IMG/VR virus record: IMGVR_UViG_3300042731_006586
Coordinates: 1-21,293 of that record
Length of the DNA stretch: 21,293 nt
Source: a virus
Direction: 5' to 3' (one strand)
Of the stretch, positions 1-18,028 are shown piece by piece. The notes under the pieces were generated by a model. The model worked only from the letters and a program-made list of their open reading frames with translations, did not search any database and was not told the DNA's origin. Position 1 is the first letter of the stretch. The number at the start of each line of letters is the position of its first letter. The position numbers were made by a program, and so were the translations under genes.

Positions 1-197
1 TGCATGATGCCGTCAGCCCAAAGCTCTTCATCTTGTGTGAGGGTGGACATTGTAAACTTGTGGTCACCATACTCGCATATATCCTCGAGCTGATGACCAG
101 CAAGTTGTGTTGAAATGTCCTGGAGTATCGCGTGACGCTTTGCGATGGGAAACTTGATTATTGGCTGAAACTCGCCGTCTTTCTTCTCGGTAGCCAT
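1..197 (-). CDS. Partial tail gene, candidate tail assembly chaperone
   Basis: This is the 5' end of a gene that leaves the window on the left; 65 codons are visible. The start is an ATG at 197 with an AGGAGG ribosome site at 203-208, five bases away. The visible protein begins MATEKKDGEFQPIIKFPIAK and has no signal peptide or membrane segment. It reads as a small soluble protein with a short stretch, FTMSTLTQDEELWADGIM, resembling the acidic, Trp-containing segments found in some tail assembly chaperones. Its position just after the tail tube genes is where myoviruses usually place tail chaperones, often with a programmed frameshift, which would lie outside the window. The role is inferred mainly from position; another small tail or baseplate protein is possible. 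Confidence 0.55.
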   Translation of the reverse strand, partial: MATEKKDGEFQPIIKFPIAKRHAILQDISTQLAGHQLEDICEYGDHKFTMSTLTQDEELWADGIM

Positions 198-227
198 AAG
201 GCCCTCCTTCAAGGTTGAAGGGTAAAG

Positions 228-7117: not shown

Positions 7118-9996
7118 GCCTCTGTAATCCTTGTAATGGAGTGGTTGGAGTTTCTAAAGATGATGATTAACCTATACTCGTTGTTGTTGAAAGCTGTGGA
7201 ATCTGTTCCTAAGCTCCAATGCAACGTGCTGCCAGAGGATAACGAATCGTTTCTTGCACCTTTAGAATTGGCTCTACTATCGCCAGCTCCAGTACCATTA
7301 TTACTGCCAATGGGTCTGCCAAGATCGAAGAACTTGCCCTCTACAGCGAGTTCGATCAAAACATTGAGATCGCCAGTACCGTACGGATCTACGTCCGTGT
7401 AATTGATACCAGCAAACGTGATTGCACCAACTGAAGTACCAGATTTGTCAATGAATCGCTGATACTCTTGGTCTGCAGTGAACCCTGGATAGTCACCGGA
7501 ATCAGGATACTGCAACGTACCATTATGGCGTTGCTGTGCATTACCGTTGACCAGCGGGTTTGAAGAGGTAAATGGTGTAGCTGTTCCTGATGTGGTGCCA
7601 GAATTCAACACGATTCTTCTAGCTTCATCAAAGAATTGGTCATCCTTGCCGGTAGACACTGTACCATAAGTGTTGATTAGGGCACTTACGCCAGCGGCTG
7701 TTGCTGTAGAACCAGTATCTGGCTTACGTATAGTAACGCCCAATGATGGTGACATAGAACTCTGATTGGCAACATCCAACGTAATAGTTCTACTAACCAC
7801 AAATTGGTCACTGACTGCAGGCACAGAACCAGGATTATCGATTGATCCACTATGACCAGGGAAGGTGATGTTTCCAACCTGTGTTGGGTGATATGCCTTC
7901 GTGAAAATGCCAGCCGCTGCTGTATATCCGATATCAACTGTTGTGCCAATACCCCAAGCTTCAATACCAGATAGCCATTTAGAAACTTTGGTATTCAATA
8001 CAGCCGTTGGAGCGGCAGCAAACGATGGCGCAGGATTCACATCATCGTAATAAAGCTCATCTTCATTACTCAATCCCGATTGGCTGTGCTGCATGGCATA
8101 CCTATTTCTACCTTCAGCAATCAACGTGAGATTGAGTCTCGCATTTGCTCGTTGGAATACCTCATTATGAGCAACAAGTGCGGTAATGGATATTCTACCA
8201 ATAGTACCAACACCATTGGTGGCTATGTCATATGTTTCAGCAACAGAACCATTCTCTACCAAATCAAGCGAACCAGCACTTGGTTGGCCATCAGTTACAG
8301 TACCAGCCAAGAATCTGTCTGCTGAATCTGGAGAGTCCAGTGTATATGTTGGGTCTACTACGTAGTTTGAGATTGTACTCCCTGGCGTGAGTGCACTCCA
8401 GGCAGCCGACAATCCACTTGGGATTTTGGCCGAATAAAGTGTGGTGCCAGCACGCACCAAATCTTGACCAGTAAGTGATCCTGGAGGAGCTGGTGGAGAA
8501 TAGTGTTCAATCCAGGTGTTGAAGGTACGTAGCCAATAGCTGCCTTCTAATTCAGCAAAAGCAATAGTACCATCATCTTCCACTGCGGCAAGCAATGTGG
8601 CTTCGTCCGGAAAGATCTTTACACCAGCACCACCCTCACTACCACCAGTAGAATCGACAGACACGCTGCCTGTCTCGAGCAATATGTTGTCCAATGTGGA
8701 CAAAAACACATTGCCGCCACCATCAGCATATGTACTGTTTAGCCATCCCTCAAGAATATGATTTGGCAGCGCAACCGTTTGCCCTATTAGACTGAACCCA
8801 ATCCATGCTTGAGAACCAACCAACACCACAAACGATCCAACACAATCGTCCACATCCACATCATACAACATAACTTGAGAATTGTGTCGACCAAAAATGT
8901 TGACACCTTCCTCATAGTCTTGCGTACCGATATGGGTGCCTGGAACACCACCCTGCCGCACTTTTGTTTCTGCTAATGATAGAATAGAGAAATATTCTGC
9001 TATTTGCAGTGGCACGCCAACCAAGTAACTACCGAAGCCAATTTCACACTTGGACTTATGTAGTTTCAATTGGCTCAAGCTGTTCATAAAATGAGAAACC
9101 GAATTAATCCGACTCTCATCTGCTATCAACGAACCAGCACAATATTGTGTACCAACAGTGACAGACGATTCAGCACTCAGCTCGACATTGCATCGCTCAA
9201 CCAATGTGAGCCCACCACAATCTGTTACTGATAGAGTAAGATTTGTGGTTCTATCCAGGATTTCAAAATATTCACCAACCTCAGGCACCTCAAAGAAGAA
9301 ATCAACCTCGAGCGTGTCTTCAGTATTACCCTTAATGAGTCCAAATTGTTTGGTGACTGGACCATCAAAAATCCTGACCAATCTACCAACATGTTCGTCA
9401 ACAACCCAATCGAGCGCACCTATCTGAAGCGAATTGAAAGCAGAGGACGCAATGGTACTGTCATATACCGATTCAGTTGTGCCTATGAGTCTGATAGCAC
9501 CACTATCGGTAGGCCCAAATAGGAATGAGTATGGATCATCAAATTCGTCTAGATCAGATTTCAGACCTTCGTTGGCAGAGAATTTGCTTTTGAGAGTACC
9601 AGTATAATCACCAGCACCCAGATATACGTTCACCACGAAATTGGCGATGTTGTTGGGGATTTTGTCGAGCGCTACTTGAAGATCCTTGATAGCATGCAAC
9701 CCATCTTCGCCAGAGCTTTGATTGTTTCCCTGTACTGCGTCCACAAAGAAATTTAGACTTTCAACAGCAGCTGGCTTACCAATAGACCGAAGCTCTACCT
9801 CATCTCTGATATCTGGATCGTGAAGCACATTGTACTCAATATGCCGTCTATCTCTATGATCTTCTAATTCTTCGATCAATGACTTGGGAACCAAGTCTAC
9901 TGGAACAACAATACGCCTACCACGACCAGCACGAACAGTACCTATCGTTGTAGATACTGGTTGGTCGGTCCTATTAATAATCTCAATTACTGGCAT
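7114..9996 (-). CDS. Large fibre-like virion protein
   Basis: 960 residues. Residues 1-57 form the small domain shared with other virion proteins here (NRTDQPVS, VRAG, VVPVDLVPKSLIEELEDHRD) and may anchor the protein to the particle. Residues of about 80-450 are rich in short strands and turns (for example GRLVRIFDGPVTKQFGLIKG and LSVTDCGGLTLVERCNVELS), consistent with a parallel beta-helix of the pectin-lyase type common in phage fibres and tailspikes. The region after 450 has a linker with a Pro/Gly stretch (PPAPPGSL) and then a beta-rich C-terminal part with Ser/Gly/Asn-rich loops, possibly the receptor- or surface-binding end. No catalytic motif was recognised. Its place between head and neck genes would also fit a collar or neck fibre. 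The stop overlaps the next start (ATGA). Confidence 0.6.
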   Translation of the reverse strand: MPVIEIINRTDQPVSTTIGTVRAGRGRRIVVPVDLVPKSLIEELEDHRDRRHIEYNVLHDPDIRDEVELRSIGKPAAVESLNFFVDAVQGNNQSSGEDGLHAIKDLQVALDKIPNNIANFVVNVYLGAGDYTGTLKSKFSANEGLKSDLDEFDDPYSFLFGPTDSGAIRLIGTTESVYDSTIASSAFNSLQIGALDWVVDEHVGRLVRIFDGPVTKQFGLIKGNTEDTLEVDFFFEVPEVGEYFEILDRTTNLTLSVTDCGGLTLVERCNVELSAESSVTVGTQYCAGSLIADESRINSVSHFMNSLSQLKLHKSKCEIGFGSYLVGVPLQIAEYFSILSLAETKVRQGGVPGTHIGTQDYEEGVNIFGRHNSQVMLYDVDVDDCVGSFVVLVGSQAWIGFSLIGQTVALPNHILEGWLNSTYADGGGNVFLSTLDNILLETGSVSVDSTGGSEGGAGVKIFPDEATLLAAVEDDGTIAFAELEGSYWLRTFNTWIEHYSPPAPPGSLTGQDLVRAGTTLYSAKIPSGLSAAWSALTPGSTISNYVVDPTYTLDSPDSADRFLAGTVTDGQPSAGSLDLVENGSVAETYDIATNGVGTIGRISITALVAHNEVFQRANARLNLTLIAEGRNRYAMQHSQSGLSNEDELYYDDVNPAPSFAAAPTAVLNTKVSKWLSGIEAWGIGTTVDIGYTAAAGIFTKAYHPTQVGNITFPGHSGSIDNPGSVPAVSDQFVVSRTITLDVANQSSMSPSLGVTIRKPDTGSTATAAGVSALINTYGTVSTGKDDQFFDEARRIVLNSGTTSGTATPFTSSNPLVNGNAQQRHNGTLQYPDSGDYPGFTADQEYQRFIDKSGTSVGAITFAGINYTDVDPYGTGDLNVLIELAVEGKFFDLGRPIGSNNGTGAGDSRANSKGARNDSLSSGSTLHWSLGTDSTAFNNNEYRLIIIFRNSNHSITRITEA

Positions 9997-13784: not shown

Positions 13785-14116
13785 TTGCCGTTGCCGTTCC
13801 CTTTACCGTAGTACGCCCCAGCGACCATATTCACACCATTCATGGCCAATGTGCCCCAGAACATATTGTACAATCCAGGAGAAACTGGATCAGTAGCAAC
13901 ACCGGTATCAGCCATAATTTGTGATTTCGCCAAGCTCACAATCACAATCACGATGAAGAGGACGAGAGCCATCAAAAGCGACACGAGTTTTTGAACCTTG
14001 GTGAAGTCCACAGCCATGTGCGAATTGCCATCAGCATCCTTCTTTGGCTTCATAAACAGAGCACCAACCCACTTCCAAGACTGATGCTTAATACCGGTTT
14101 TGGTTTCTTCTGACAT
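13781..14116 (-). CDS. Small membrane protein, possible holin
   Basis: 111 residues. One strong membrane helix (about 44-64, LVSLLMALVLFIVIVIVSLA) and a weaker hydrophobic segment near 81-103 (LYNMFWGTLAMNGVNMVAGA). The N-terminal 40 residues are soluble with a Trp motif (HQSWKWVGALF), and the tail is Gly/Lys-rich. I chose the ATG at 14116 (MSEETKTG) rather than the GTG one codon earlier because it has AGGAGG exactly six bases upstream; it then overlaps the preceding stop as TGATG. Size and topology fit a holin or a membrane anchor, without sequence recognition. Confidence 0.5.
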   Translation of the reverse strand: MSEETKTGIKHQSWKWVGALFMKPKKDADGNSHMAVDFTKVQKLVSLLMALVLFIVIVIVSLAKSQIMADTGVATDPVSPGLYNMFWGTLAMNGVNMVAGAYYGKGNGNGK

Positions 14117-14523
14117 CACGCACCTCCTGGTGTGGCTGCGGCAATCATATACACACTAGCTATCACTGGATCGCCACCACTGTTTGTAAGAGTTAATTCA
14201 GATTTCATAATAGTAGGCGGTCCTGCATCGTCAGGATGTTTGTGAATACCTCTGGTTGCAGGCCTAATCTCTTCAAGATCTACTTGTTTGACCTTATGAG
14301 TTCCTATAGCAGCAATGGCTGTAGGAGTACCATCATTTTCACCAGCATACTTTGGCTGTGCCGAGACATTGATGGCACCAGCACCAGTTATATGAACCCA
14401 TGCAAGATAGTGCCTGTATGGATTACCTGATTCAAAGGTAATAGTGATTACGTTGTCAGGCGCTCCTGCAAGAGGAGCCAGCACAACCCTTCTAGTTAAT
14501 TGAATGTGTTCAGCAACTGCCAT
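14116..14523 (-). CDS. Virion protein, tandem paralogue B
   Basis: 135 residues from the second of two adjacent ATG codons; this start gives a six-base gap to AGGAGG and makes the N-terminus MAVAEHIQLTRR match that of the neighbouring copy. It is a beta-rich, soluble protein; roughly half of its positions are identical to the preceding gene, including ESGNPYRHY, AGENDG, EEIRPATRGI and the C-terminus ATPGGA. Likely a small decoration, collar or tail-associated subunit. The high conservation at both ends with divergence in the middle suggests two subunits that share one site or form a mixed ring. No known family is recognised. Confidence 0.55.
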   Translation of the reverse strand: MAVAEHIQLTRRVVLAPLAGAPDNVITITFESGNPYRHYLAWVHITGAGAINVSAQPKYAGENDGTPTAIAAIGTHKVKQVDLEEIRPATRGIHKHPDDAGPPTIMKSELTLTNSGGDPVIASVYMIAAATPGGA

Positions 14524-14927
14524 CATGCGCCTCCTGGCGTAGCCATCGCCAGCATGTAAACACTAAACTCTATTGGATTAGTAACATCCTGGTTTGTGAT
14601 TACAAGCTCAGATTTCAAAATATGAGGTGGAGCATCATCATCAGGATGCGCTTTGATGCCTCTAGTAGAGGGTCTTATCTCTTCCATTGGAACTTTGAAT
14701 ACGACGGTTGGACCCTTTGAACTCACGTTCACAACAGCGCCGTCATTATCTCCAGCGAATTTTGGTTGAACGTCAAGGTCGGGCGTTGCTGAAAGCACAT
14801 ACACCCAAGCCATGTAGTGGCGATAAGGATTACCAGACTCAAGAGTCAAAGTAATACTATCGTTTGGTCCACCATTAGCATCAAGCGTTAACTTGCGTGT
14901 GAGTTGTATGTGCTCAGCAACCGCCAT
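14523..14927 (-). CDS. Virion protein, tandem paralogue A
   Basis: 134 residues, beginning MAVAEHIQLTRKLTLD, with the shared blocks ESGNPYRHYMAWVYV, AGDNDGAVV, EEIRPSTRGIKAHPDD, KSELVITN and the end ATPGGA. An AAGGTG ribosome site precedes the ATG at 14927. The stop overlaps the start of paralogue B as TGATG. It lies between the head-side genes and the membrane-protein cassette. Beta-rich, no signal peptide. It is most plausibly a small structural subunit; the duplicated pair is discussed under findings. Confidence 0.55.
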   Translation of the reverse strand: MAVAEHIQLTRKLTLDANGGPNDSITLTLESGNPYRHYMAWVYVLSATPDLDVQPKFAGDNDGAVVNVSSKGPTVVFKVPMEEIRPSTRGIKAHPDDDAPPHILKSELVITNQDVTNPIEFSVYMLAMATPGGA

Positions 14928-14937
14928 TCTTTACACC

Positions 14938-15891
14938 TTAACCTGCTGTAACAGCAGCCTCGTCATCGGCATCATCACCCTCCATCTGTTGGATGAGTTC
15001 TGCCGTGCGTTGTTTGGCCCACTTCTTCACAGATTTGTAATATCCGTGGGCACGGATGTGCTCGAGATCATCCAGCTTCATGTCTGGAATGTCCTCGAGA
15101 GCTTCAAGAAGCTCACGAGCGGGCATTCGCTCCTCTTCCTCGATTTCAGCCTTCACCTGATTGCACAAGTGAAGAACACGAGGATTGATAATCTCATCTT
15201 CTGAGACCATCTCAGAGGGAGATACGCGCTCGCGCTCTCCAAAGAACTTGGCTCCACCAGGACCAGTACCCTTCTCAGTCACTTCATGGATGGGCTGTGG
15301 TGCATTGCCGGAAACAGGTTCTCTCAGAGTGCGGTCTGCAGTGCGACGACGCCGCTCCTCAGACTCATCGATTGCTGCGTCTACGTCTGGTTTACCTTCC
15401 GAATCCATCATGTTCTTGCTCTTCGCCCGCTTGGAGAAGTATGCCTCATATTCCTCCTGGGACAGAAGCTGGAGCGCTGGTGGTCGACGACTCAGCATCT
15501 TGCGGAAATCCATCGAGCTTTTGATGGCATCGAACGGAATATGCTGGGTCAGATTGACCGGATCTCTGCTATGTGGGAAGGTAAATCCCTCAGTGCGGTT
15601 GTTGTTGATTGGAAACTCTACAGAAACCTGGGCACTGGCCATGTTCTGCACGTAAACGTCGCGTTCCTCTTTGAAATACTCTGTGAAATTACGGATTGCC
15701 ATGTCTCTTCGCTTCCTTCTAATTGAGTCGATTGGCTTGGAATGGAGAAGTTGGATGGCGAAAGGATCTTTGGAGATGACAATTGCCTTGCCTTCCTTTA
15801 CCAACTTCCGCGCTAAAGGAGGCTTGGTGTATTCCAAGAATCGCTTCTCGGAATCCAAAACCAAAATTCCCTGCCAAGGCCGCTTCGCCAT
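14938..15891 (-). CDS. Virion-module protein with RRXRR/PLMP-like N-terminal domain
   Basis: 317 residues. Residues 8-50 (VLDSEKRFLEYTKPPLARKL, then VKEGKAIVISKDPFAIQLL) follow the layout of the RRXRR (PLMP) domain that starts IscB-type proteins: a VLD strand, a P-x-x-A-R-K-L helix, a KA-x-V strand and a PF-x-IQLL strand. It is followed by an Arg/Lys patch (SIRRKRRD), but no RuvC or HNH motif follows. Residues of about 87-145 contain a copy of the small virion domain found in other proteins here (PVNLTQHIPFDAIKSSMDF, LQLLSQEE). The C-terminal half is charged and helical (KAEIEEEERMPARELLEALE) and may be partly disordered. An internal ATG at 15702, behind an AAGGA site, could make a shorter product lacking the first domain. 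The ATG at 15891 has only a distant GAGGGG site. Confidence 0.62.
   Translation of the reverse strand: MAKRPWQGILVLDSEKRFLEYTKPPLARKLVKEGKAIVISKDPFAIQLLHSKPIDSIRRKRRDMAIRNFTEYFKEERDVYVQNMASAQVSVEFPINNNRTEGFTFPHSRDPVNLTQHIPFDAIKSSMDFRKMLSRRPPALQLLSQEEYEAYFSKRAKSKNMMDSEGKPDVDAAIDESEERRRRTADRTLREPVSGNAPQPIHEVTEKGTGPGGAKFFGERERVSPSEMVSEDEIINPRVLHLCNQVKAEIEEEERMPARELLEALEDIPDMKLDDLEHIRAHGYYKSVKKWAKQRTAELIQQMEGDDADDEAAVTAG
15702..15720 (-). promoter_or_regulatory. Possible internal translation start in the 317-residue gene
   Basis: An AAGGAAGCGAAGAGAC stretch precedes an in-frame ATG whose first base is at 15702 (protein start MAIRNFTEYF). It would give a 254-residue product without the RRXRR-like domain. 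The ribosome site is better placed than that of the upstream ATG. It may also be fortuitous, since purine-rich Arg/Lys codons mimic ribosome sites. Confidence 0.3.
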
Positions 15892-15917: not shown

Positions 15918-15935
15918 GTACCGCCAAAACGGTAC
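15918..15935 (-). other. Perfect six-bp hairpin upstream of the 317-residue gene
   Basis: GTACCG and CGGTAC flank a six-base loop. It lies 27 bases before the start codon on the transcribed strand. It has no following T-run and is not a terminator; it could be a leader structure or protein-binding site. Confidence 0.3.
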
Positions 15936-15954
15936 GGGCGTTTCACCCACCTTG

Positions 15955-15971
15955 CCCTGCCCACCCGGCCC
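15955..15971 (-). other. Canonical G-quadruplex motif on the transcribed strand
   Basis: The minus strand reads GGGCCGGGTGGGCAGGG: four runs of three G with loops of 2, 1 and 2 bases. A fifth GGG follows at 15946-15948. It sits in the leader between the terminator-like hairpin and the start of the 317-residue gene, so it would be in the RNA if transcription crosses this gap. Such short loops normally give very stable quadruplexes, most of all in RNA. Confidence 0.6.
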
Positions 15972-15988
15972 ATTCCGGATGAGGAGAC

Positions 15989-15997
15989 AGTTTATAT
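15989..15997 (-). promoter_or_regulatory. Promoter-like box ATATAAACT
   Basis: Minus strand ATATAAACT, identical to the core of the promoter at 228-255 and similar in form to TATAAATA-type phage late promoters. No -35 box is visible at the right distance. It would give a leader of roughly 90 bases in front of the 317-residue gene, including the quadruplex motif. Confidence 0.28.
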
Positions 15998-16084: not shown

Positions 16085-16660
16085 CTACGGCTTCAGGATT
16101 TTCACCCGAAGCGCTGAGTTGATGATGGGAGTCGGAGTACCAGCAACATAGGTGGTCGCGATCGAAATCTCGTCACCCTTCTCCACTGTTGCTCCACCCT
16201 CATCACCGTACAGAGTCTGACGCGCAGCCGTGACAGTCGTGGCATCGGCAACCAAAGCTGATGCAAGAATCGTGGTGCCATTCTTGAGAACATCAAACGT
16301 CATGCTCTCACCAGCACCAGGAATTGCACCAACCTGAGCCTCAACCTGGATCACGCCAGCCATGTCAGCGGTGCCAAGAAGCATCGTTGCTTGAGTGGCA
16401 GCAGCTTCCTGCACCCACTCCATGAGCTGTGAATCCAACAGACTGTCGATGTCTGTCGCTTCGGACTCTGTGGAAACCGTCAGACGACCAGCAGCAACCA
16501 GCTGCTGGATGATCGGACTCTTGTTGAGATCGTCGGCAGCAACTTTGTCACCGACATCGACATTTCCACCGGCAGGAATGTTCTCTCTGAGAACGGTCTC
16601 GCCGATACCAACATCGAGTGACAACGGATTGCTACCAGGATTTCCAAGCAATACCTTCAT
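16085..16660 (-). CDS. Small head-side virion protein
   Basis: 191 residues. Residues 1-65 form the small beta domain reused in this block (MKVLLGNPGSNPLSLDV, IPAGGNVDVGDKV, NKSPIIQQLVAAGRLTVS). An acidic linker with a helix follows (SLLDSQLMEWVQEAAATQA), then a C-terminal beta domain (about 95-191) with AGVIQVEAQVGAIPGAGE and TFDVLKNGTTILASALVA, which resembles small decoration or adsorption-type beta-sandwiches. A strong AGGAGG site lies six bases before the ATG. It sits directly after the major capsid gene, from which it is separated by hairpins. Likely a capsid decoration or head-associated protein; not assigned to a named family. Confidence 0.55.
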   Translation of the reverse strand: MKVLLGNPGSNPLSLDVGIGETVLRENIPAGGNVDVGDKVAADDLNKSPIIQQLVAAGRLTVSTESEATDIDSLLDSQLMEWVQEAAATQATMLLGTADMAGVIQVEAQVGAIPGAGESMTFDVLKNGTTILASALVADATTVTAARQTLYGDEGGATVEKGDEISIATTYVAGTPTPIINSALRVKILKP

Positions 16661-16749: not shown

Positions 16750-17985
16750 TTACTTGCGACCCTTCGCCACCGATCTCGGGTTCGGGATACCGAAGCCGAT
16801 GATCTCACCAAAGGCCCAGCCCTTGACCAGACGACGGTGGCTGAACATGTTGAACGGCTCGGAGAACAGCTCAACACGAACGCCCATCTCGCCAAGGTAC
16901 TCACTGCCAGTGACGGCGTAGAAGGTGCCCGCAGGCACGACTTCCTCAACACCGGTTCCGGCTGCCGTGATGATCTGAGCGTTGAGGATGTTGCCGATGT
17001 ACCCGGCGAGAATCAACTCGCGCTCGGTAACCGGGTCAACATTCGCGCTCATCGTCTTCACGATGTCGGAAAGCTCGGCACGGTTGATGAGGAACTTCTC
17101 CACCATCAAGCGGTGACGCTCAACCTGGTAGCGAACATCCTCAAACGCCGAGATGCCCAGCGTGGCGAAGATGGTCTCAGAGTTGACCGTGACAGCCGCA
17201 CGATCGAGAAGGCCGAGGGCTCTCTTGTCCTCTTCCAGCTCGATCTCCTGGCGTGCGGTGTCTTGCGCACGATCCAGAACATCGTAGTTCATCTGGTAGA
17301 TGTCCTCGATGTCCACGGTCGGGAACGCTGTCACCTTGAACTCGGACGGCTGGATGAAGCGCCCATGGAGTCGAGACTCAATGGACTGACCATCCTGGCC
17401 AACCACCCAAGCGGTGGAACGAACGTCCTTCGCGATGCGGAACAACTCGCCTTGCGCGAGCGGGCGCACACGGTAGACCTTGCGTGCCCAACCCTCGTAG
17501 TCGATGATGTCCTTGATCGGAAGGAGCAGCTCCTGACCGACGATGGCAAAGCCTTCACCGGTCGGGTCCTGCATCGCAGCTGCGAGCACCTTGCGGCGAT
17601 CCTCAGCTGGCATCTCGGTGGACGCCTCACGATAGAACTGACCAGGAGCAGCCTTCTTCGTGACCGTGTTCAACAGATACGCGATCTGTTGAAGGGCATC
17701 GTTGTCGTCCTGCGCGTTCAGCTCGCCCTTCTTGTCGAACATCCGGTTCGAAAGCTTGGTCGAGCCAACAGCCTGACGAATGCCCTCACGATGTTGGTGA
17801 CCACCGTAGGCAACAGGGTTGAAGTTCCCATCCGGATCGTGCGACTGCTCTTGAGCCGGATTGGTGAAATGCTCAACCTTGTGAGCGTGAACTCGGTCGG
17901 GCTGAGCAGGCGGAGGGGCTTCTGTTGGCTGACGAGCTGCCGCCCCGGCTGCAGCAATGCGTCTGTAAGGATTCACAACACCCAT
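16750..17985 (-). CDS. Major capsid protein (HK97-fold type)
   Basis: 411 residues from the ATG at 17985 (MGVVNPYRRIAAAG). This start has AGGAG nine bases upstream; the reading frame is open further back but only reaches a poor TTG. Residues 1-80 are Ala/Pro/His-rich and look like a removable N-terminal arm. The core holds segments typical of myovirus capsid proteins: FKVTAFPTVDIEDIYQMNYD, VLDRAQDTARQEIELEEDKR (spine-helix-like) and the C-terminal strand GWAFGEIIGFGIPNPRSVAK. It assembles the capsid shell. It is flanked by hairpins on both sides and has GC-rich codon use, both fitting very high expression. Residues 69-77 (IRQAVGSTK) match a motif near the C-terminus of the upstream putative scaffold protein. 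Confidence 0.83.
   Translation of the reverse strand: MGVVNPYRRIAAAGAAARQPTEAPPPAQPDRVHAHKVEHFTNPAQEQSHDPDGNFNPVAYGGHQHREGIRQAVGSTKLSNRMFDKKGELNAQDDNDALQQIAYLLNTVTKKAAPGQFYREASTEMPAEDRRKVLAAAMQDPTGEGFAIVGQELLLPIKDIIDYEGWARKVYRVRPLAQGELFRIAKDVRSTAWVVGQDGQSIESRLHGRFIQPSEFKVTAFPTVDIEDIYQMNYDVLDRAQDTARQEIELEEDKRALGLLDRAAVTVNSETIFATLGISAFEDVRYQVERHRLMVEKFLINRAELSDIVKTMSANVDPVTERELILAGYIGNILNAQIITAAGTGVEEVVPAGTFYAVTGSEYLGEMGVRVELFSEPFNMFSHRRLVKGWAFGEIIGFGIPNPRSVAKGRK
17755..17781 (-). other. IRQAVGSTK motif in the capsid protein N-terminal arm
   Basis: Encodes residues 69-77 of the capsid protein. The same nine-residue pattern, IRQAVGTTK, occurs at residues close to the C-terminus of the protein encoded at 18907-21293. 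The codons differ, so it is conserved at the protein level rather than as a DNA repeat. Candidate prohead-protease site or shared binding motif. Confidence 0.5.
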
Positions 17986-18028
17986 TTTCTTGTTCTCCTC
18001 TTGTTTTCTCGTTTTCTGGTTCTCCTGA
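17986..18028 (-). promoter_or_regulatory. Capsid gene leader with duplicated ribosome-site block
   Basis: The minus strand holds two near-identical blocks, AGGAGAACCAGAAAA and AGGAGAACAAGAAAA, separated by an A-rich spacer. The second, with AGGAG at 17995-17999, is correctly spaced for the capsid ATG. The A-rich, unstructured leader right after a strong hairpin should load ribosomes well. Confidence 0.5.

Follow-up and report, generated by a model that had tools for sequence, protein, structure and literature searches.

The 21 kb virus record analysed here (IMG/VR record IMGVR_UViG_3300042731_006586; 21,293 nucleotides, hereafter the window) carries on its minus strand a gene, PLMP-X, in which an N-terminal PLMP (RRXRR) domain is fused to an unrelated body, X (Table 1). 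A single gene (16085-16660) separates the major capsid gene from the fusion, and in all relatives with a known upstream region PLMP-X closely follows the capsid gene. Two adjacent small paralogues of 134 and 136 aa, both MAVAEHIQLTRK-like, come immediately after the fusion on the same strand (14116-14927). Three further paralogous genes (188, 191 and 154 aa) stand in tandem at 247-1867 on the minus strand, after a sheath-like gene of 829 aa, and two of these three match phrog_985 (virion structural protein).

Table 1. Features of the PLMP-X locus and of the second leader in the window
Feature	Position	Strand	Description and evidence
PLMP-X fusion gene	14938..15891	-	317 codons; ORF; same layout in 28 distinct sequences
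Major capsid gene (context, upstream of fusion)	16750..18015	-	phrog_2522, E 7e-59; 72% identity to Rctr197k
RRXRR/PLMP domain, residues 8-50	15742..15870	-	PF14239, E 9e-7; fold match to IscB/IsrB
Internal ribosome-binding site, agaaggaagcgaagagac	15703..15720	-	Codes for basic linker; conserved purine-rich Shine-Dalgarno; raised codon identity
Body X from internal ATG	14938..15702	-	254 codons; phrog_17686; fold matches to PLMP-less PaBG, Motura and other proteins; L003 starts here
Structured leader	15918..15989	-	P1 15953-15989, P2 15936-15948, P3 15918-15935; MFE z -3.2; covariation in six relatives
ATATAAACT, -10-like box ahead of leader	15989..15997	-	Only two exact copies in window, each before such a leader
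Second, similar leader	192..221	-	P1 206-221, P2 192-203, overlaps start codon at 197; sequence and fold; counterparts in relatives
Second late gene, start	1..197	-	About 175 codons in relatives; runs off window

PLMP domains have so far been known from RNA-guided nucleases, the ancestors of Cas9. The initial annotation had assigned residues 8-50 (GILVLDSEKRFLEYTKPPLARKLVKEGKAIVISKDPFAIQLLH or near it) to this domain and had described it as joined to a different body without a nuclease motif, and profile searches bear out both assignments. On the full protein, PF14239 matches residues 9-55 over profile positions 1-47 of 174 (E 9.1e-7, 29.3 bits; curated cut-off 25 bits), and the N-terminus alone also passes the cut-off (E 3e-8, 34.2 bits). 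The same profile matches 14 of the 17 members scanned at E 0.01 or better, whereas none of the 17 matches RuvC or HNH; the match to PHROG 2214 (HNH endonuclease) is confined to residues 9-48. A match limited to profile positions 1-47 means that the protein has the PLMP domain but lacks what comes next in IscB, the bridge helix and the RuvC part.

Structure prediction with AlphaFold yielded a beta-beta-alpha-beta-beta arrangement for residues 9-48 (pLDDT about 85-93), followed by a disordered linker (57-64). The body (69-185) is predicted to be rich in beta strands and to contain helices, and beyond it a disordered stretch leads to a C-terminus that is helical. When the domain was modelled alone and searched against the PDB with Foldseek, the first nine places were all taken by IscB or IsrB (E 8e-4 to 1e-2, probability 1.00), with IF3 N-domains lower in the list as a weak fold match. 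The predicted domain model superposes on the PLMP domains of IscB and IsrB at 0.7-1.7 Å over 46-50 columns, and on TbaIscB at 0.7 Å over 47 columns with 36% identity. The P-L-M-P motif itself is absent in most members, which read LEYT or LSYT instead, while L012 has LLTP. Profile, fold and conservation rule out a chance resemblance, and these results demonstrate that a genuine PLMP (RRXRR) domain, of the type seen in IscB and IsrB, stands at the N-terminus of a nuclease-free body. PLMP-X is not an IscB; it places a known domain in a new architecture.

The fusion was found in 28 distinct sequences, the window included, of large environmental tailed phages with identities down to about 25%, the relatives being IMG/VR records plus Virus Rctr197k, a phage of 197 kb that stems from a methane-oxidising enrichment. 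Domain and body share one frame without a stop codon in all 28, and within the group the N-terminal domain is missing from a single relative, L003. The outcome that the initial annotation had named as refuting, no profile or structural match or a domain lacking in every homologue, was therefore not observed. Whole-record searches showed that 20 of 21 records contain PF14239 once and once only, and no IscB that could be a nearby donor in the same genome was found in the 21 records searched, many of which are fragments. A search with a clade B alignment of the PLMP domain only returned nothing beyond PLMP-X family members, and a pattern search for the protein in GTDB genomes found no relative. 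Two other candidates, H4 (MT835856) and H2 (Microcoleus phage), proved to be ordinary IscB-type genes. In L003, the capsid gene is followed by two genes (7165-7894) before X begins, at the place where other relatives have the leader and the PLMP domain; one of the two looks dCMP-deaminase-like on visual inspection.

The domain is also absent from the relatives of X in other jumbo phages, so it may have been gained by fusion, and this absence would suit a reading in which an IscB once inserted ahead of gene X is now decaying and the domain is what is left of it. That explanation is very improbable: dN/dS in the domain segment is 0.06-0.29 in ten pairs, and purifying selection of this kind refutes a mere remnant, although the domain may still descend from an ancient IscB insertion. 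The retention of the domain, always in frame, across very divergent phages also speaks against decay. IscB may conversely have taken the domain from a phage family, as the initial annotation suggested, though some 45 residues are too few to resolve the order of events. No match to HEARO RF02033/omegaRNA was detected in the window, L002 or L004, though the same model finds the RNA of a true IscB (L006, positive control) at 129 bits.

The boundary between domain and body coincides with a conserved internal start signal. The second start that the initial annotation had noticed, an ATG at 15702 that would separate the two parts, is indeed in frame, conserved and preceded by a Shine-Dalgarno sequence, and nearly all members carry an in-frame ATG with a strong Shine-Dalgarno at this junction; in L055 the ATG is lacking and a GTG preceded by AAAGGAGG is found instead, and the start in L038 is ambiguous. 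The mean anti-Shine-Dalgarno energy of junction starts is -8.3 kcal/mol (22 loci), and that of the 134 internal AUGs elsewhere is -3.2. The Mann-Whitney p of 3e-11 for this difference is generous, given the relatedness of the sequences and the choice, in each gene, of the best among one to three candidates. Furthermore, identical residues are encoded by identical codons at a frequency of 0.68 in the 12 codons before the junction versus 0.48 in the body, and L003, without the domain, starts exactly at body X. The RRKRR stretch of the window's linker was rejected as the RRXRR motif because it is not conserved, relatives reading RRKT, RRKQ or RRRK; its presence is more readily put down to the purine-rich sequence of the internal ribosome site. 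On the simplest reading of these sequences, the gene probably yields two products, PLMP-X and X alone, with the fusion itself under selection.

Upstream of PLMP-X, a hairpin leader ends shortly before the start codon. The arrangement AACC-[P1]-GAG(G/A)U-[P2] is common to 13 leaders (L012, L013, L015, L018, L021, L022, L027, L028, L034-L037 and L040), in which eight of nine pairs show compensatory change and 95.6% of cells pair, versus 40-53% in slid controls. Within the window's own group (six sequences; P1, P2 and P3), 10 of 23 pairs are changed on both sides, with 94.6% paired versus 37-52% in slid controls. A covariance model built from the 13-leader set, R1, recovered two untrained members (E 1e-21 and 7e-18); it gave no match to the window's group, L055 or L057, and the equivalence of leaders across groups therefore rests on layout. 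The clade C leaders (L004, L005) gave no significant fold, and in L003 the leader is missing, as is the PLMP domain, a co-loss based on this one genome. A DNA-pattern search with the clade B leader hit 12 contigs, nine of which are PLMP-X phages, the other three looking like chance repeats. In L012, the interval between the capsid gene and the leader contains a tRNA-like sequence at about 1420-1520 (…GGTTCGAATCC…CTCCACCA).

Body X matches phrog_17686 in 13 of 17 members (best 1.6e-8), the window itself giving 5e-4 over residues 74-166, and a fold search finds its likeness in proteins of PaBG, Motura and others that are too short to include the PLMP domain. By profile and fold, PLMP-X probably shares its body with the phrog_17686 proteins of the jumbo phages PaBG (S5VV81), Lu11, Motura and Yoloswag, which differ in being about 200-250 residues long without a PLMP domain. 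In PaBG and Yoloswag their genes are not part of the head cluster but have primase, Holliday-junction resolvase and CRISPR/Cas-associated genes as neighbours. None of the genes that flank the capsid gene of PaBG, Lu11, Motura or phage G matched X, whose relatives lie elsewhere. Since these neighbourhoods are not those of head genes, the virion-type label for X, which comes from gene position only, is tentative. In Salmonella phage Sen-NF (PV359490), the region homologous to X (24469-25173) contains in-frame stops (TAA, TGA), which reflect either a broken gene or a sequencing problem.

In-frame internal starts are known in phage head genes, and long and short forms of a protein encoded just downstream of the major capsid gene would fit the proposal of the initial annotation that the PLMP domain was recruited to bind nucleic acid or a protein in the particle, here the virion or prohead, with a minority of long and a majority of short X packaged. 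We consider such a role unlikely, given that X is placed with the virion by gene neighbourhood only, that its relatives in PaBG and Yoloswag stand apart from head genes, and that the leader would be left unexplained; a structured leader just upstream points to mRNA binding rather than to binding in the capsid.

A second copy of the leader rules out that the element is unique to PLMP-X, and the leader is therefore not private to this gene. In several genomes this second, mostly weaker copy lies 11-13 kb downstream, directly before a gene of about 175 codons. Its form in relatives is ACCCCGC-loop-GCGGGAG followed by GGAGC-GAAA-GCUC-AUG, with the Shine-Dalgarno inside the hairpin, and the window's group has its own version, which in the window (226-192, within region 1-234) is preceded by ATATAAACT exactly as the PLMP leader is. 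The second late gene, absent from the window's ORF list because it runs off the window, has no Pfam or PHROG match, and only its position and size recall those of tail-assembly chaperones. In both L113 and L114 (records of L034 and L036) this gene contains one in-frame TAG, which could reflect readthrough, recoding or a frameshift, all common in tail-chaperone genes. The second-gene leader is missing in L003, L004 and L012, of which L004 and L012 do have the PLMP domain.

The second copy implies that either PLMP-X serves both mRNAs or the element is a general late leader. Were it general, it would be a generic 5' region of late transcripts (promoter, protective hairpin and ribosome site) at two operon heads, unrelated to PLMP, and the domain would act otherwise, for instance on ribosomes like IF3-N or on another phage protein. 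The occurrence of the element before a gene without a PLMP domain, the ATATAAACT box shared by both leaders in the window and the weak fold match to IF3-N are all consistent with this. We nonetheless regard it as somewhat unlikely, because the element occurs at only two places per genome and not at most late genes, and because L003, which has no PLMP domain, carries it at neither gene. The resemblance of the PLMP fold to IF3-N has been published (PMC9581776) and agrees with the weak Foldseek match obtained here; the folds are similar, but no sequence or fold score between the IF3 N-terminal domain and PLMP-X is significant.

Characterised PLMP domains offer a closer comparison. In IsrB, the domain binds the tandem hairpins with which omegaRNA ends on its 3' side, and it contacts the terminal hairpin, which contains the Shine-Dalgarno of the IsrB reading frame (PMC9581776); in IscB, it recognises the terminal omegaRNA hairpins mainly without sequence specificity (PMC9640706). 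PLMP-X shares with these systems the domain, by profile and fold, and an arrangement like that of the omegaRNA 3' end, in which hairpins carrying ribosome-binding signals immediately precede the reading frame. It differs in having no bridge helix, RuvC, HNH or HEARO/omegaRNA, the leader showing no sequence homology to omegaRNA, and in having L-[ES]-Y for the PLMP motif in most members, another body, an internal start and a fixed genomic position. The phage genes repeat the IsrB/IscB order of hairpins, start codon and PLMP, minus guide and nuclease, and for this reason we favour the reading in which PLMP-X binds its own leader. Ribosomal-protein type autoregulatory leaders likewise combine a conserved structured 5' leader, reaching up to the start codon, with a putative RNA-binding protein; the PLMP-X leader differs from them in fitting no Rfam family and in being paired with a domain of the OMEGA kind.

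We tentatively propose, as a possible mechanism, that both PLMP-X and X are made and that the PLMP domain binds its own mRNA leader, and possibly the second leader, to tune translation. Full-length PLMP-X would be produced alongside X alone, the latter from the strong internal ribosome-binding site, with a short disordered basic linker tying the PLMP domain to the unrelated body of about 250 residues. The domain would keep the task it has in IsrB, holding tandem hairpins and the Shine-Dalgarno region just before its own reading frame, its target here being the structured leader and perhaps that of the second late gene. Binding would tune the ratio of full-length to short product, and perhaps the second gene too, while the internal start would supply X without its RNA-binding head. 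In this proposal we infer two proteins in vivo, RNA binding and autoregulation from the conserved sequence features described above. Together, the fusion, the internal start and the leader suggest a second job for the PLMP domain as an mRNA regulator.

The PLMP domain has been described in the OMEGA nucleases IscB and IsrB, where it stabilises the guide RNA beside the nuclease's own ribosome-binding site (PMC9581776, PMC9640706). No prior report of its nuclease-free use was found in the literature searched, a body of work that left most subscription journals and all bioRxiv preprints outside its scope. A broader proposal, speculative and with a small chance of being correct, is that PLMP-X is a phage translational regulator that reads the tandem-hairpin leaders of its own mRNA and of at least one further late mRNA; that the basic function of the PLMP domain is to bind the leader of the mRNA encoding it; and that the omegaRNA 3' end, with its Shine-Dalgarno hairpin, is an elaboration of such a leader. 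If true, this would show how RNA-guided nucleases could have come by their guide RNA. A widely conserved, nuclease-free use of the domain with its own leader RNA would split the RNA-binding role of PLMP from DNA cutting, would give a testable model for the linkage of IscB with omegaRNA, and would mean that large phages also control genes in a way not anticipated so far.
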